Shown here piece by piece: positions 145 through 5,649 of a DNA stretch of 5,649 nt. Location of the stretch: the NCBI GenBank assembly GCA_946886865.1, contig CAMPJI010000123.1, forward strand, positions 1 to 5,649, written 5' to 3'. A program made the translations under genes and the position numbers. Positions within the stretch are counted from its first letter, which is position 1. Each line of letters begins with the position of its first letter. This DNA comes from an uncultured Lysobacterales bacterium (GTDB taxonomy: Bacteria > Pseudomonadota > Gammaproteobacteria > Xanthomonadales > Xanthomonadaceae). The notes under the pieces are model-generated. The model had not been told where the DNA came from and searched no databases. It worked only from the letters and a program-made list of their open reading frames with translations.

Positions 145-1503
145 TCAGTACCCCGCCTGCGCACCCTGCATCGAAATCCGCTCACGTACCGGCGCCACCT
201 CATGCGCCTGCTGGCGCGCGTTCTCCTGGCGCGCCGACTCCGTAGCGACCTGTTTCGCTGACTCATCCGCATCGGGAGGCAACCGGCTGAGATCGATCCG
301 GGCACGTTGACCCGGAACGTCGCCGGTCACGAAGACCGCATCATCCTGCACGTGCACCGCGTCCACCCGCCCGGCACGGATACCGGCGGCATTTGTGGCC
401 GCCGTGATCTGCGCGAGGCGGTCGGCCGATGTTTCGGCCGGCAAGCGGTTACGCAATTCGTCGTGCAGTCGATGCGACGGGTGCCCGGGATTGTCAAACA
501 ACTGGTCGGTCACCTCTCGCGTGATCGGGACATGTCGATACTGGTTTGGCCCATCCGCCGTGTGATCGAAATGCCCCATCCGTTCCTCGCCACCGCTGGT
601 GTCGATGTAGGCCTGTCGGGACTTGTCCGCACTCCTTCCAAAGTGGATGCCATTGATCTCAAGCATCTCTTCATCCATGCCGTGCCGATCCATATCCATG
701 ATCAGCCGTGGTTCGACTCCACGATGAGGGCGCGCGTAGATTCGATGGCTTTGAACGATGTATCCAATTGCAGACGCTCCCGTGTGGTTCGGGTAACTTG
801 AGGCGGCGCGTCCGACCGTGCTTGTCGGATCCTGATAGTAGTTCGTGACCAACGTGGAGAGGTTCGAGGGCGTGGGTTCCAAGGTCATGTTCGGCAGAAC
901 TTCGATACCGGGGCGGGCGTAGACTTTTCCATCAACGATATGGACGAAGTCGTCCGCCCGACCTGGAAGATCATTGAGCATAGATGCCAGCGTCACCCGG
1001 CCGTTCAATGCGCTGAAACGAGAGACAGCCGAATTCCAGCCTTCCACATGGGCTCTCGCCTCATCGTGCGCAGACGCCCGATGCCAAGCGGCAATCGGCT
1101 CGTCGTATGCATTTTCCGGATCCCTGCTTCGAGATATATCGTTGATCTCATTGGCAGCTTTTCCGATGGCCTGTTGCCGTGCTGCGTGATTGAATCCGTG
1201 CTGCAACTCGTGGCCCAGCACGAACGTCAAGTCATTTGCCTCGAAGTTTCCCTGGGGAGCGCCCTTCAAAGCCGAGGCAGGTATTTCGATGCGTTTGGAT
1301 TCACCGTAGTAGAGGGCACCAGCGCGCATACCGCCGGCCATCAATCCGATCGACTTCAGGTGTCCGGCTTCAACCGCGCCTGAGAACAGGGCCTCAAGGT
1401 GGGGAGATTCGCTGATCGTGCTACGCAGGTTGGCAACCATTTCGGGAGTCACGCCTCTTTCTCGTGACAAGTCCCCCAGCAATCGTTCCGCATCCTTGTG
1501 CAT
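145..1503 (-). CDS. Putative X-T4SS antibacterial effector (X-Tfe): HExxH metallopeptidase with C-terminal XVIPCD
   Basis: This 452-residue protein has no signal peptide, as expected of a type IV secretion substrate. Residues 94-105 carry FVLGHELQHGFN, a zinc-metallopeptidase HExxH motif (His98, Glu99, His102). EARAHVEGW at 148-156 follows and could supply a third zinc ligand, with Glu148 the best candidate, as in gluzincin-type peptidases. Residues about 200-330 form a second region I do not recognise. Residues about 335-432 resemble the XVIPCD secretion signal of Xanthomonadaceae effectors: FDNPGHPSHRLHDEL (336-350), a helix with DRLAQITAAT, then AGRVDAVHVQDDAVFVTGD (377-395), and a Gln-rich tail. 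XVIPCDs are bound by VirD4, which is encoded two genes upstream. The ATG at 1503 has AGGAG eight bases before it. The gene looks intact. The cleaved target is unknown; the paired lipoprotein points to an envelope target in competitor bacteria. Confidence 0.83.
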   Translation of the reverse strand: MHKDAERLLGDLSRERGVTPEMVANLRSTISESPHLEALFSGAVEAGHLKSIGLMAGGMRAGALYYGESKRIEIPASALKGAPQGNFEANDLTFVLGHELQHGFNHAARQQAIGKAANEINDISRSRDPENAYDEPIAAWHRASAHDEARAHVEGWNSAVSRFSALNGRVTLASMLNDLPGRADDFVHIVDGKVYARPGIEVLPNMTLEPTPSNLSTLVTNYYQDPTSTVGRAASSYPNHTGASAIGYIVQSHRIYARPHRGVEPRLIMDMDRHGMDEEMLEINGIHFGRSADKSRQAYIDTSGGEERMGHFDHTADGPNQYRHVPITREVTDQLFDNPGHPSHRLHDELRNRLPAETSADRLAQITAATNAAGIRAGRVDAVHVQDDAVFVTGDVPGQRARIDLSRLPPDADESAKQVATESARQENARQQAHEVAPVRERISMQGAQAGY

Positions 1504-1522: not shown

Positions 1523-2164
1523 TCAGAGGTACTCGATCCGCTTTACGCACTCCACTCTCACGGACTTTTCAAGCTCGTACCCATGCGTGCTGACACGCAG
1601 ATGCTGGTACGCCTTTTCATCTCCACGCACGAAGTGCCACCCGATCTGCATTCCGTGCTCCACCAGCCAGGGATCCTGCACGAACCCTCGGATGCGTAGC
1701 GCATCAGCCAGCGGACCCAACAGGTCGCACGCGTTGCTCTCAGCGCCCGCCAATGGCATCCCGGCGTGTTCGATGATCAGCTTTGTTCGTTCCTCGAACC
1801 TGTCGGACTCCACATATTTCACCTGATAGGTGGTGACGTCGGATTCGATCTCCGCGACATCCGCCTCCAGTCCAGGCTGGTACGTCAACGCTATTTGCAG
1901 GTGACTCTGAACCAGATCTCGCGTGAGAGCGGGATTGGCTTCCAGATGGTCAATCAAGGCAACAACGCTGACGAGGGCTGCGGATAACGACGAGTCAATG
2001 TCTCCCCTCATGTCGCCGTGATCAGCTTGGGTCTTGCCTCTCTCACCGATGTAGCTTGCGGCTTGCCCATCCGACCTGGTCGTATGTGTTGTTGGCACCG
2101 CACACGCCGCCAGCGCCATGCTGGCTGCGGCGGTAATGGCGTGCGTCATACTCCGTGCCTTCAT
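1523..2164 (-). CDS. Putative X-Tfi immunity lipoprotein, internal start within the virD4 frame
   Basis: Starting at the ATG at 2164, this 213-residue protein has a lipoprotein signal peptide: Lys2 and Arg4, a hydrophobic core, and the lipobox LAAC with Cys21 as the lipidation site. The residue after Cys is Ala, not Asp, which predicts sorting to the outer membrane, facing the periplasm. The mature part is mostly charged and helical-looking, with two further cysteines (146 and 206) that could form a disulfide. I do not recognise its fold. Two things suggest immunity: it is a lipoprotein, as X-Tfi proteins of Xanthomonas are, and it lies 19 bases upstream of a predicted X-T4SS effector. The start is supported by AAGGAG eight bases before the ATG. 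A second ATG at 2149 would also keep the signal peptide but has poorer spacing. Its frame is continuous with virD4, which is odd because a signal peptide inside a fusion would not be used normally. Confidence 0.8.
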   Translation of the reverse strand: MKARSMTHAITAAASMALAACAVPTTHTTRSDGQAASYIGERGKTQADHGDMRGDIDSSLSAALVSVVALIDHLEANPALTRDLVQSHLQIALTYQPGLEADVAEIESDVTTYQVKYVESDRFEERTKLIIEHAGMPLAGAESNACDLLGPLADALRIRGFVQDPWLVEHGMQIGWHFVRGDEKAYQHLRVSTHGYELEKSVRVECVKRIEYL

Positions 2165-3874
2165 CCTGTCCTCTCCTTGCTTGATCGTGGGCACCTGCAC
2201 CGGCGGCAGCAGCCGCGCGGTGAAGTGGCGGTCTTCGTAATAGCGGATCTTCCGGCATTTGATGGGGTGCGCGAGGCCTTCGTAGACCAGCACCTGGTCC
2301 TTCGCCCCCATGGCCTTGAGTTCCTGCGGCAGCATCAGCGCGCGGCGCTCCTCGGACTCGTTGATCGACACGTCCCGCCGCAAGCCGCGCTGCCGGGTTT
2401 TGTTGCGACGGCGCACGGTGGTGTAGCCGAGCATCTCGGAGTAGTCGTTGGCGTCGCGCTGCTCGCGAGGGGCGAACAGGATCTGCATGGCGTGGTTGGT
2501 GACCAGGGTGCGGGCGACGTCCTTGCCGTACACGGCGTCGAGCTGCGCCAGCGACTGGATGATCGGCAACAGGCGCAGGTTGTAGCCGGCCATGTACGCC
2601 ACCGCCGAGGCGATGATGTCGACGCGGCCGATGGCGGTGAACTCGTCCATCAGCAGCAGGCACTGGTGCCGCAGCGCGGGGTTGGCCTGCGGCAGCTCGC
2701 GCGTGTTGAGGTGGATCAGCTGGCTGAAGAACAGGTTGAGGATGAGCCTGGCCTCGGCCAGCTTGTTCGGCGCGATGGCGACGTAGATGCTCATCGGCCG
2801 CTTGCGCACGTCGGTCAGGAGGAAGTCGTTGGCGCTGGTGGCCGCGTCCAGCACCGGGCTGACCCACGGGTTGAGCGGCTCCTTGAGCGTGCCGAGGATG
2901 GAGGCGAGCGTCTCGTCGGCCTGCGACAGCAGCGTGGCGAACGCATTGCGTGCCGGCTCTCCCAGGAATGGCTGGCCGGCCAGCGCCTGCAGGTACTCGC
3001 GCAGTGCCGTGCCATCGCCCGACGACAGCCGGAACAGGCGGCCGAGCGTGGGGAACTGGTACAGCGACTCGGGCATGCCGATCGCGACCTGGTCGTCGAA
3101 GTTCTCGAACAGGTACAGCGCGAATGCCAGAAACGCGTTGCGCGCCTGGCTGGTCCAGAACTTCTGCTTGTCGTCGCCGTCCGGATAAAGCATCGCGGCG
3201 ATGGCCTGCAGGTCCGACACGCGCAGGGCGGGGTCCTGGCTGACGTAGGCCAGCGGATTCCAGCGGTGGGTGCGGCCGTCCTCGGCAAAGGGATTGAACA
3301 GGTAGACCGCCTGCCCCTGCGCCGCCCGCCAGCCGCTGGTGAGGTCGAAGTTCTCCTGCTTGATGTCGAGCACGACGACCGAGCCGCGGTACTCCAGAAG
3401 GTTCGGCACCACCACGCCCACGCCCTTGCCCGAACGCGTGGGCGCGGCGAGCAGCGCGAACTGCTGGCCCGGCAGCCGTACCAGCTTGCGGCCCAGTCGC
3501 CCGACCACCAGTCCGTCGTCGGCCGGCTTGAGCAGCCCCAGCCGCGCCAGTTCACGCCCACGGGCGAAACGGGCGTCACCATGCAGCGCCTGCTTGCGCG
3601 GTCGCAGCAGCAGGACGGCGAGTACGAGCGCAACCAGCGCCGGCAGGCCGAACCCGACCCACCCCGCCAGGCGCACGCGACCGGCATGCGGCGCCACCTG
3701 CGGCAGGTCCAGCACGCGTGCGTAGCTCCACCACGTGTCCCAGCGCAGCGGCGCATCCACCTGCAGCAGCGCCTGCACCAGCCAGCCGGCGAGGTACAGG
3801 CCGGCCACGCCGGCGGCGGCCGCGCTCGCAAGCGCCAGCCCGGTTCGGGTTCTGGAAGGCATCATCGTCAACAT
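1523..3874 (-). CDS. virD4: VirD4 type IV coupling protein, reading in frame into an immunity lipoprotein
   Basis: Residues 1-570 form a VirD4/TraG-type coupling protein, the hexameric inner-membrane ATPase that recruits substrates to a type IV secretion system. Two membrane segments are visible (about 11-36 and 69-91). They are followed by a Walker A loop, APTRSGKG at 144-151, and a Walker B strand, LLLMDEF at 406-412. Between them, about 236-337, lies a helical region matching the all-alpha domain, which in Xanthomonas VirD4 binds the XVIPCD of effectors. The VirD4 part ends near LLPPVQVPTIKQ (555-566), a normal size for the family. No stop follows: the frame continues through residue 571 into a whole lipoprotein of 213 residues, giving 783 codons. 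The start is uncertain, because ATGs at 3874, 3865 and 3862 are all weakly supported by ribosome binding sites. The VirD4 identity is firm. Whether a fused protein, two separate proteins or both are made cannot be decided here. A separate VirD4 would occupy 2165-3874. Confidence 0.88.
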   Translation of the reverse strand: MLTMMPSRTRTGLALASAAAAGVAGLYLAGWLVQALLQVDAPLRWDTWWSYARVLDLPQVAPHAGRVRLAGWVGFGLPALVALVLAVLLLRPRKQALHGDARFARGRELARLGLLKPADDGLVVGRLGRKLVRLPGQQFALLAAPTRSGKGVGVVVPNLLEYRGSVVVLDIKQENFDLTSGWRAAQGQAVYLFNPFAEDGRTHRWNPLAYVSQDPALRVSDLQAIAAMLYPDGDDKQKFWTSQARNAFLAFALYLFENFDDQVAIGMPESLYQFPTLGRLFRLSSGDGTALREYLQALAGQPFLGEPARNAFATLLSQADETLASILGTLKEPLNPWVSPVLDAATSANDFLLTDVRKRPMSIYVAIAPNKLAEARLILNLFFSQLIHLNTRELPQANPALRHQCLLLMDEFTAIGRVDIIASAVAYMAGYNLRLLPIIQSLAQLDAVYGKDVARTLVTNHAMQILFAPREQRDANDYSEMLGYTTVRRRNKTRQRGLRRDVSINESEERRALMLPQELKAMGAKDQVLVYEGLAHPIKCRKIRYYEDRHFTARLLPPVQVPTIKQGEDRMKARSMTHAITAAASMALAACAVPTTHTTRSDGQAASYIGERGKTQADHGDMRGDIDSSLSAALVSVVALIDHLEANPALTRDLVQSHLQIALTYQPGLEADVAEIESDVTTYQVKYVESDRFEERTKLIIEHAGMPLAGAESNACDLLGPLADALRIRGFVQDPWLVEHGMQIGWHFVRGDEKAYQHLRVSTHGYELEKSVRVECVKRIEYL
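2173..2178 (-). promoter_or_regulatory. Strong ribosome binding site for the immunity lipoprotein
   Basis: AAGGAG lies eight bases before the ATG at 2164, inside the last codons of the VirD4 region. It is the best Shine-Dalgarno match near any start in the window apart from the effector's, and it is the main evidence that the lipoprotein is initiated separately rather than made only as a VirD4 fusion. Confidence 0.75.
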
Positions 3875-4008
3875 CCGTGTCGGGCCGCCGGTGCGGCGGC
3901 GTGGGTCAGTGCCCCCATCCCGGGGACGCCCGCATCATAAAGAGAAGCCGGCACGCGTGCAGCGCGCCGGCTCCGGGACACCTCATTCCAATGTGCGAGC
4001 CGCCGCGA
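3875..4008 (-). other. Intergenic gap between pit and virD4
   Basis: This 134-base gap holds the hairpin at 3946-3972 and must also contain any promoter for virD4. A TATGAT hexamer at 3934-3939 resembles a -10 box, but no good -35 sequence lies 16-18 bases upstream and that position falls inside the hairpin. No convincing Shine-Dalgarno sequence precedes the first virD4 ATG. I see no coding sequence here. Confidence 0.5.
3946..3972 (-). terminator. Probable intrinsic terminator after the DUF47-pit unit
   Basis: On the minus strand, 36 bases after the pit stop codon, AGCCGGC pairs with GCCGGCT (7 bp). The stem extends inward by a G-T wobble and three more pairs around a small loop of about five bases. 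It is followed by TCTCTTTATG, a short and imperfect T-rich run. Position and shape suit a rho-independent terminator separating phosphate uptake from the virD4 unit; the weak T tract means leakage is possible. Confidence 0.55.
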
Positions 4009-5136
4009 TCAGGCCCAGCCGATCGCCCGCATGCCGACGAACATCAGGTAGGCCAGCCCACCCGCCATCGGGATGGTCAGGATCCACGCCCAGATCATCT
4101 TCTCCACCACCGTCCACTTGATGGCGTTGAGGCGCTTGGCCGTGCCCACGCCCATGATCGCGGCGGAGATGTTGTGCGTGGTCGAGACCGGGATGCCGAG
4201 CGACGACGCAGCCAGGATCACCGAGGCGGCACTGGTTTCAGCCGCGAAGCCGTGGATCGGGTGCAGCTTGACCAGCTTGTGGCCCAGCGTCTTGATGATG
4301 CGCCAGCCGCCGGCGGCGGTACCGGCGGCCATCACCAGCGCGCAGGTGATCTTGATCCAGGTGTCGATATCGCCTTCGGCCAGCGCGGCATCGGACGGGT
4401 GCAGGAAGGCCAGCCAGCCCGGGAGGTCGTCCAGCGTGCCCGCGGCCTGCGCGCCGACCAATGCCAGCGCGATGATGCCCATCGTCTTCTGGGCATCGTT
4501 CATGCCGTGGGCGAAGCCCATGCCGGCGGCGCTGAGGATCTGGAATTTGCCGAAGAAGCTGTTGACCCAGCGCGGACGGGCCGCGCGGGCCAGGACGCCG
4601 CCGCTGCGCGCCATCATCGAGATGACGAAGAACAGCACGCCCATCACCAGGAAGCCCGCGGTGAAGCCCAGCACCGGCGAGGACACCATCGGCACGACGA
4701 CCTTCCACAGCACGCCCGCGCTCTTGTAGAGCGGCTCGGCCGGTTCCGACCAGATGATCGCGCCGGTGTCGTTGGACGCCGCGGCCAGCGCCGCGCCCAG
4801 CAGGCCGCCGATCAGCGCATGGGACGAGGACGACGGCAGCCCCACCCACCAGGTGATGAGGTTCCAGATGATGCCGCCCATCAGCGCGCACAGGATCAGC
4901 TGCGAGCCGACCTCCACCACGCCGACATCGATCAGGCCCGACGCGATGGTCTTGGCGACCGCCGTGCCGGCCAGTGCGCCGATCAGGTTCATGCCCGCCG
5001 CCAGGCCCACCGCCTGCATGGGCGACAGCACCTTGGTGGCCACCACCGTGGCGATGGAGTTGGCGGTGTCGTGGAAGCCGTTGATGTACTCGAAGATCAG
5101 CGCGACGAGTACGACGGTGATGACCAGCGTCAGCAT
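4009..5136 (-). CDS. pit: PiT-family inorganic phosphate transporter
   Basis: This is a complete 375-residue low-affinity inorganic phosphate permease of the inner membrane (PiT family), which in bacteria usually imports metal-phosphate with protons. The duplicated family signature is clear in both halves. The N-terminal half has GFHDTANS at residues 20-27 and GLPSSSSHALIG at 99-110; the C-terminal half has GFAHGMNDAQK at 207-217 and GIPVSTTHNIS at 314-324. About ten hydrophobic segments are visible, with more hydrophilic stretches near 175-196 and 234-260. The length fits the shorter bacterial PiT proteins rather than the roughly 500-residue E. coli PitA. The ATG at 5136 begins a hydrophobic N-terminus typical of the family and is preceded by a modest purine stretch (GAGG about 9 bases upstream). 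It follows the DUF47 gene by 10 bases. Ion specificity cannot be read from the sequence. Confidence 0.96.
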   Translation of the reverse strand: MLTLVITVVLVALIFEYINGFHDTANSIATVVATKVLSPMQAVGLAAGMNLIGALAGTAVAKTIASGLIDVGVVEVGSQLILCALMGGIIWNLITWWVGLPSSSSHALIGGLLGAALAAASNDTGAIIWSEPAEPLYKSAGVLWKVVVPMVSSPVLGFTAGFLVMGVLFFVISMMARSGGVLARAARPRWVNSFFGKFQILSAAGMGFAHGMNDAQKTMGIIALALVGAQAAGTLDDLPGWLAFLHPSDAALAEGDIDTWIKITCALVMAAGTAAGGWRIIKTLGHKLVKLHPIHGFAAETSAASVILAASSLGIPVSTTHNISAAIMGVGTAKRLNAIKWTVVEKMIWAWILTIPMAGGLAYLMFVGMRAIGWA

Positions 5137-5146
5137 CCCGCCGGCC

Positions 5147-5649
5147 TCAGGAGTTCTTCAGCACGATTTCGTAGGCCACCACGCCGGCCTCGCGGCAGCG
5201 GTCGATGGCCTTCTCCAGGATTTCGAAGAACTCCTTGAGCAGGAACATCTGCAGCGGATCGAGCCTGCCGGAGTAGATGTCGCGGTACAGCTCCAGCATC
5301 AGGCGGTCGGCCTCGTTCTCGATGGAACGCAGCTGGTCGCCCAGCGCCTTCATCGGCTCCAGCTTCATCAGCTTGAGCTTGCGGACCATCTCCACGACCA
5401 CGCCGGCGGCCTGCTCGAGCATCGCCGCGCGCGGGGCGAAGTCGATATGCGCCAGGTGCTGGGTGGCCAGCGAGTAGCGGTCGGCGAACTTCTCGACCTG
5501 CTTGGGGATCTTGTACAGGGCCGATCCCAGCGCTTCGATGTCCTCGCGCTCGATCGGCGTGATGAAGCTGTCCACCAGCGACTGGCTGATCTTGTCGGAG
5601 GCGTCGCGCTCGCGCTGGCGGGCCAGCTTGAACGCGTCCAGCGACGGCT
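5147..5649 (-). CDS. DUF47 / PhoU-like phosphate transport accessory protein (5' end cut by window)
   Basis: The protein belongs to the DUF47 (PhoU_div, TIGR00153-like) family: cytoplasmic, all-helical, PhoU-related proteins usually encoded next to PiT phosphate transporters and thought to modulate them, as in the orfA-pit operon of Sinorhizobium meliloti. The visible 166 codons contain the family's VDSFITPIEREDI segment followed by long amphipathic helices rich in Leu, Glu, Lys and Arg, and end in VLKNS. There is no signal peptide or membrane segment. A GTG at 5575 could be mistaken for the start, but the frame stays open upstream with family-like sequence (DAFKLARQRERDASDKISQSL) to the window edge. 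The real start is therefore outside; against a usual length of about 205-215 residues, roughly 40 are missing. The stop lies 10 bases before pit, so the two are almost certainly cotranscribed. Family assignment is firm; the regulatory role is inferred from context. Confidence 0.9.
   Translation of the reverse strand, partial: PSLDAFKLARQRERDASDKISQSLVDSFITPIEREDIEALGSALYKIPKQVEKFADRYSLATQHLAHIDFAPRAAMLEQAAGVVVEMVRKLKLMKLEPMKALGDQLRSIENEADRLMLELYRDIYSGRLDPLQMFLLKEFFEILEKAIDRCREAGVVAYEIVLKNS

Follow-up and report, generated by a model that had tools for sequence, protein, structure and literature searches.

An uncultured Lysobacterales bacterium carries a gene in which a VirD4 coupling ATPase of the X-T4SS type continues, with no stop codon, into a complete lipoprotein. 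The window analysed here is a stretch of 5,649 nucleotides (contig CAMPJI010000123.1); the fused gene occupies positions 1523–3874 on its minus strand and comprises 783 codons. We consider it likely that virD4 gained an immunity/effector cassette at its 3′ end, that both the chimera and a free lipoprotein are made, and that the lipoprotein protects the cell against the effector encoded next to it.

A complete VirD4 is fused to a complete lipoprotein

The open frame, the Pfam matches and the lipobox bear out the original prediction that one frame of 783 codons covers a whole X-T4SS-type VirD4 and a whole lipoprotein (residues 571–783). The domain T4SS-DNA_transf (PF02534) spans residues 124–561 (E = 2.2e-105; 353.7 bits, cut-off 20.1), and the VirD4 part also exceeds the curated cut-off for TraG-D_C (PF12696; 88.5 versus 22 bits). 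The last 213 residues of the chimera gave no Pfam match at E 0.01. Alignment with homologs agreed with a full-length VirD4 but not with its predicted end at residue 570. The canonical end lies at about residue 566, and 151 of 175 distinct VirD4 C-termini stop between −1 and +5 codons from this position. The VirD4 part is accordingly assigned to residues 1–566 (positions 2177–3874, minus strand), after which the window encodes GEDR and then M571 at position 2164.

A search with the 783-residue query returned 4542 proteins at E 1e-3. The 120 of these that were listed were 56–93% identical to the query, which marks the VirD4 part as X-T4SS type rather than conjugative, and the named relatives among these 120 were nearly all Xanthomonadales, Flavobacterium sp. 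MXW15 being the exception. The 5000 plasmid records retained were all less than 60% identical, with 45–53% for the 20 listed. One VirD4 relative (P0003) has an acetyltransferase N-terminus (PF00583) and is either a chimera or an assembly artefact. A mechanical open reading frame of 640 codons runs antisense to the fused frame.

The lipoprotein part (213 aa; positions 1523–2164, minus strand) begins at ATG 2164, which opens MKARSMTHAITAAASMALAAC. By eye, this is a signal peptide (residues 571–590, positions 2105–2164, minus strand) with an LAAC lipobox, whose cysteine (positions 2102–2104, minus strand) is residue 591 of the chimera and residue 21 of the free lipoprotein. The lipobox and the signal peptide, both judged by eye, together with an effector gene 19 nt downstream are the marks of an X-Tfi. 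No stand-alone relative of the lipoprotein was found at E 1e-3 among 643 candidates, and the fold comparison gave no safe match. Its assignment as an immunity protein therefore rests on gene order and the signal peptide. The gene order is common to loci L027, L130, L209 and L210; the tails of these four lack the lipobox. Judged by the order in common with Luteibacter, the lipoprotein probably confers immunity to the HELQH effector encoded behind it.

The neighbouring gene encodes a probable X-Tfe effector

The gene at positions 145–1503 (minus strand) encodes 452 aa with an HELQH zinc-peptidase motif (positions 1198–1212, minus strand; HExQHGFN in 5 of 5 aligned sequences) and a Q-containing C-terminal domain of secretion type. 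Sequence features and comparisons make its product a probable, though not proven, X-Tfe effector. A large gene with the motif HE[LVI]QHGF directly follows the fused gene in the window, L027 and L130; at L209 and L210 further immunity copies (L209 2454–3707, L210 3388–3912) separate the two. One of these copies contains two in-frame immunity domains, and the other seems truncated. At L281 the effector-like gene carries HETGH. Fold comparison of the window's effector gave weak zinc-peptidase matches and nothing stronger.

The last 150 residues of the effector (positions 145–594, minus strand) are XVIPCD-like, but the effector had no PF20410 match at E 1. The profile of this C-terminus matched a mixed set of secretion-type C-termini from other virD4 loci (A7) with 99.5%, and direct comparison with three PF20410 members was negative (2.9%). 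An intermediate group (A11) links to the same three members at 87.5%, which was the sole link found. Q-containing C-terminal domains of this class also form the last 150 codons of the corresponding genes at L027, L130, L209, L210, L150, L176, L219, L281 and L211. PF20410 missed all six that were scanned (window, L027, L130, L209, L281 and L150), and some Q-containing C-termini link to XVIPCD by profile.

Fusions recur in other genomes

That two genes are joined by four codons without a stop is by itself not improbable. What lifts the fusion above chance is its recurrence, in eight of the 120 listed relatives and at six loci among the 175 distinct C-termini. The eight proteins (P0005, P0010, P0015, P0021, P0049, P0051, P0086 and P0105) are 781–871 residues long, and the remaining 112 have at most 590 residues. 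By eye, all eight pass the canonical end into an apparent signal peptide and a secreted domain; a lipobox was not found in the tail of P0049. The junction, sought in related genomes as originally proposed, was present in fused form at L027, L130, L209, L210 (the same place as L193 in the count of C-termini), L150 and L262, with genome G401 holding two fused copies (L193/L210 and L209). Fused forms from three genomes of the genus of Luteibacter sp. OK325 align with L027 over almost their full length at 61–68% identity. The arrangement had been put forward as new for an X-T4SS. The chimeric frame is real, but it is not unique.

These findings also bear on the trivial explanation that an assembly or sequencing error removed a stop codon. 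Fused forms occur in five other genomes, one of them with two copies, and in the eight database proteins. We regard such an error as very improbable and reject it.

By inspection and alignment, the tails fall into three families. Family A contains the window, P0005, P0086, P0051, L027, L130, L209/L210 and L262. Family B consists of P0010, P0015, P0021 and P0105 and occurs unfused at L148, L161 and L172; family C comprises P0049 and L150. Families A and B were unrelated in profile comparison. In a VirD4-only FastTree phylogeny of 295 sequences (midpoint-rooted), the 15 fused tips formed 11 all-fused clades, and parsimony on this tree gave 11 changes from an unfused root.

The survey of VirD4 loci took the best 80 of 383. 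Two genome samples (398 and 395, from larger groups) were scored with two candidates per genome and a third (233) with up to four. From the 398 genomes, the given loci and 80 entries were used, leaving out three of the same type and more distant ones; from the 395 genomes, the given loci and ten others picked mainly for long open frames. With this coverage, the survey may have overlooked fusions, and the fused fraction is no rate. The motif behind the count of 175 missed L167, whose own VirD4 was wrongly flagged in the scan for orphan ends described below.

An internal start would supply the free lipoprotein

The original prediction favoured internal initiation at 2164, and this is well supported. 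The Shine-Dalgarno sequence AAGGAG (positions 2173–2178, minus strand), whose letters are also in-frame codons of the chimera, sits 8 nt 5′ of the ATG. By duplex energy with the anti-Shine-Dalgarno sequence, it makes 2164 the strongest of the 51 in-frame start codons in the fused frame. With the same method, the internal site ranked 1 of 70 at L262, 1 of 41 at L209, 2 of 42 at L210 and 3 of 26 at L027. The sites at L130 (13 of 46) and L150 (a TTG, 13 of 58) are weak, and free initiation is thus not evident in every fused locus. The conserved KVEV codons at the 3′ end of virD4 (such as AAGGTGGAGGTG) resemble a Shine-Dalgarno sequence and could serve a start just 3′ of them, for example the TTG of L150.

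Second immunity copies carry the same kind of site. The second immunity gene at L209 starts after gggagaggcctATGCC, which is close to the fusion's own catggagaggcctATGCC; the site is identical at the second copy of L281 and a weaker variant at that of L210. No full VirD4 reads into these second copies, so the site probably acts as a ribosome binding site there. According to a study on Stenotrophomonas, Smlt3025 protects as residues 45–333, which start at the signal peptide, and not as 1–333 or 13–333 (PMC6759196). The rank of the Shine-Dalgarno sequence, the sites at second copies and the Smlt3025 result together make it most likely that the free lipoprotein is initiated at 2164. VirD4 alone, with 570 residues, cannot be a primary product. 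In a frame with no stop, any ribosome that initiates at virD4 and completes translation yields the chimera. The likeliest output is therefore two proteins, the 783-residue chimera and the free lipoprotein.

The chimera could instead function as a polyprotein. In that case its internal signal peptide would form a third membrane segment and the immunity domain would be exported still joined to VirD4. A cut by signal peptidase II at the lipobox would then yield VirD4 and the lipoprotein in a fixed ratio. The lack of a stop fits this reading, as any full translation of virD4 yields the chimera. So do the nearly continuous alignments of the Luteibacter-group fusions with L027 and the case of L150, which has no good internal start and yet keeps an open tail of 332 codons with a lipobox. 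However, another TTG at L150, preceded by GAGGT, may serve as a start, and four of the six fused loci (second G401 copy excluded) have a strong internal ribosome binding site. Moreover, the signal peptide of the window is only weakly hydrophobic, with a 19-residue Kyte-Doolittle maximum of 1.42 compared to 2.54 for the second membrane helix of VirD4, and N-terminal extensions abolished protection by Smlt3025 (PMC6759196). We judge the polyprotein to be improbable.

It had also been argued that a literal fusion would block VirD4. This is not necessarily so. In genome G340, all three VirD4 candidates were scored, and the single match of this type is fused. G657 likewise has one VirD4 match, which is fused, with two of seven candidates scored. 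Since the only VirD4 of this type in G340 is a fusion, the chimera may need to retain coupling function in at least one lineage. In G002, G235 and G401, it is an additional copy, distant from virB4, that is fused.

virD4 probably gained the cassette at its 3′ end

The window is collinear with locus L001 of Lysobacter selenitireducens from the phosphate-transport genes through virD4, with 93.1% identity over 3464 nt. The alignment stops at position 2190, inside the last virD4 codons and 25 nt 5′ of the internal ATG. The VirD4 of L001 ends with a different tail, and no effector was seen among the open reading frames listed behind it. The GC content at third codon positions is 94.9% in pit, 92.1% in virD4, 69.2% in the immunity gene and 66.7% in the effector gene. 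From the end of identity at 2190 and the fall from 92 to 69%, we infer that recombination at the virD4 3′ end probably brought in the immunity/effector cassette; the junction with the last virD4 codons (positions 2165–2190, minus strand) is then probably foreign. The pit and DUF47 genes (positions 4009–5647) adjoin virD4 in the window. In the nearest relative (G001), virD4 and virB4 lie on different contigs, and one VirB4 and two PF20410 matches were found.

The proposed course of events is as follows. Recombination inside the last virD4 codons would have brought in a cassette of a lipoprotein X-Tfi and an HExxH effector. As the acquired end lacks a stop, the reading of virD4 would continue into the immunity gene. 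Translation from the virD4 start would make the VirD4–X-Tfi chimera of 783 residues, and ribosomes loading at the in-frame AAGGAG/ATG 2164 would make the free lipoprotein of 213 residues. The latter would be exported and lipidated and would shield the periplasm from the effector encoded 19 nt downstream.

The fusion itself may be neutral, the cassette having landed in frame by chance and the read-through being tolerated. The gene phases agree with this. At 20 loci with a secreted-protein gene near virD4 (selected by our own rule), six genes lie in frame 0, all of them fused, and seven each lie in frames 1 and 2 as separate genes. This ratio of 6:7:7 equals the random expectation and reveals no excess of fusion. 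Selection for fusion is thus unsupported by gene phase. On the other hand, none of the 14 separate genes is in frame 0, where one in three should fall with stops retained; this deviation is weak, several of the loci being related.

The signal peptides provide a further argument. They are similar in fused proteins of family A (window, P0086 and P0005) and family B (P0010, P0015 and P0021). The signal peptide of the window scored 55 against that of P0015 and 39 against that of P0010, compared to 37 for the best of 67 background N-termini. P0086 scored 62 against P0010 (best background 52) and 41 against P0015, a value reached by 4 of the 67. This background of lipoprotein-like N-termini is small and was chosen by our own rule. 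The three unfused family B signal peptides tested reached background level only, and P0105 and P0049 differ in this peptide. The similar signal peptides and the repeated xGExxM junction suggest that the VirD4 tail, the ribosome binding site and the signal peptide travel jointly while the mature domain is exchanged. Their occurrence in certain fused proteins whose mature domains are unrelated weakens the idea of many independent de novo fusions. It likewise speaks against pure neutrality, as the junctions may have been inherited rather than remade. For neutral fusion, the chances appear a little short of even.

Orphan virD4 ends accompany second immunity copies

Of the 175 distinct VirD4 loci, 141 offered 2 kb or more of downstream sequence. 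Orphan 3′ ends of the kind known from CDI/Rhs systems were found at L281, L170 and L187/L219, in each case before a second immunity copy. All of them lie behind a full virD4. At L281 the second immunity copy, located behind the effector, opens with a virD4 3′ end (SKRLMDKVEVKPLVI; 1984–2028), and the duplication measures 873 nt with 91% identity. The orphan at L170 is IRHYEDKYFTSRLMEKAKVEPLNI (3872–3943; E = 8e-11). Those at L187 (3894–3968) and L219 (2957–3031) are decayed (E = 3e-7), and L186 contains another degenerate end (E = 2e-4). In the genus of G002, clear orphans were present in two of 23 genomes, both already among the loci named. In the window, no orphan end is shown in the 144 nt behind the effector; weak tblastn places elsewhere reached E values up to 1.

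The 3′ end of virD4 thus resembles a site at which immunity/effector cassettes are exchanged, comparable to cdiA in CDI. Orphan cdiA-CT/cdiI modules likewise combine a constant large gene with a variable 3′ cassette, and the orphans downstream frequently open with a piece of that gene (PMC3150448). In contrast, the constant gene here is a coupling ATPase, the immunity gene comes first in the cassette, and the toxin is a separate gene. By analogy, the system of the window would work like CDI; membership in CDI is not claimed.

By eye, the VirD4 tail of L040 and L211 (VAPMEKRTKVVATTSRRARAALGQMAEAA) looks like the junction and signal peptide of L027 minus the hydrophobic core, which would fit the loss of an immunity domain.

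Relation to known systems and possible roles of the chimera

The available parts of two reports describe X-Tfi/X-Tfe pairs that share several features with the window. In X. citri (XAC2610/XAC2609) and Stenotrophomonas (Smlt3025/Smlt3024), the same VirD4 family is present, the lipoprotein gene lies upstream of the effector gene, the lipoprotein has a signal peptide and a lipobox, and the pairs often lie near secretion genes (PMC6536674, PMC6759196). These pairs are separately encoded, whereas the X-Tfi-like gene of the window is in frame with virD4. The same text mentions VirB3–VirB4 fusions for other systems and no VirD4–immunity fusion (PMC6536674, PMC6759196). Judged by titles and the beginnings of abstracts, no paper among those listed dealt with a VirD4–immunity fusion or with orphan virD4 ends; the search covered few papers of subscription journals and no bioRxiv preprints, and this negative is therefore no proof of novelty.

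A search of the same kind listed five papers, none of them on fbcH. The cytochrome b–c1 fusion encoded by this gene is cut at an internal signal peptide. As in the window, one frame passes from a membrane protein into an exported protein that brings its own signal peptide.

The chimera could also confer protection in cis. Kept cytoplasmic at the VirD4 C-terminus, the immunity domain would neutralise the effector at its docking site, and the free lipoprotein would guard the periplasm. The cytosolic X-Tfi XAC2610 protects X. citri, immunity is assigned to cis-toxicity, and XVIPCD is the part of the effector that docks on VirD4 (PMC10933484); X-Tfis acting in two compartments have been proposed (PMC6536674). 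A hydrophobic signal peptide in the linker is, however, ill-suited to the cytosol, and at L040 and L211 a tail that resembles it by eye has lost the hydrophobic core. We therefore think that cis protection probably does not apply.

A broader reading combines the two themes. The 3′ end of virD4 would be a site of cassette exchange in bactericidal T4SSs, with VirD4, the junction, the ribosome binding site and the signal peptide as a constant platform for interchangeable immunity domains and effectors, as in CDI and Rhs; in the fused forms, the VirD4–immunity chimera would be put to use, either by a cut at the lipobox or by holding the immunity domain at the docking site. We hold this combination to be rather doubtful. 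If it were true, no coupling protein would be made without its antidote. Independently of this, a probable immunity protein and the coupling ATPase are tied together in one frame, and protection in cis at the docking site becomes testable. The orphan-fragment rule can guide the search for displaced immunity/effector pairs. X-T4SSs may renew their effector repertoire through recombination at the virD4 3′ end, as the findings in several lineages suggest.
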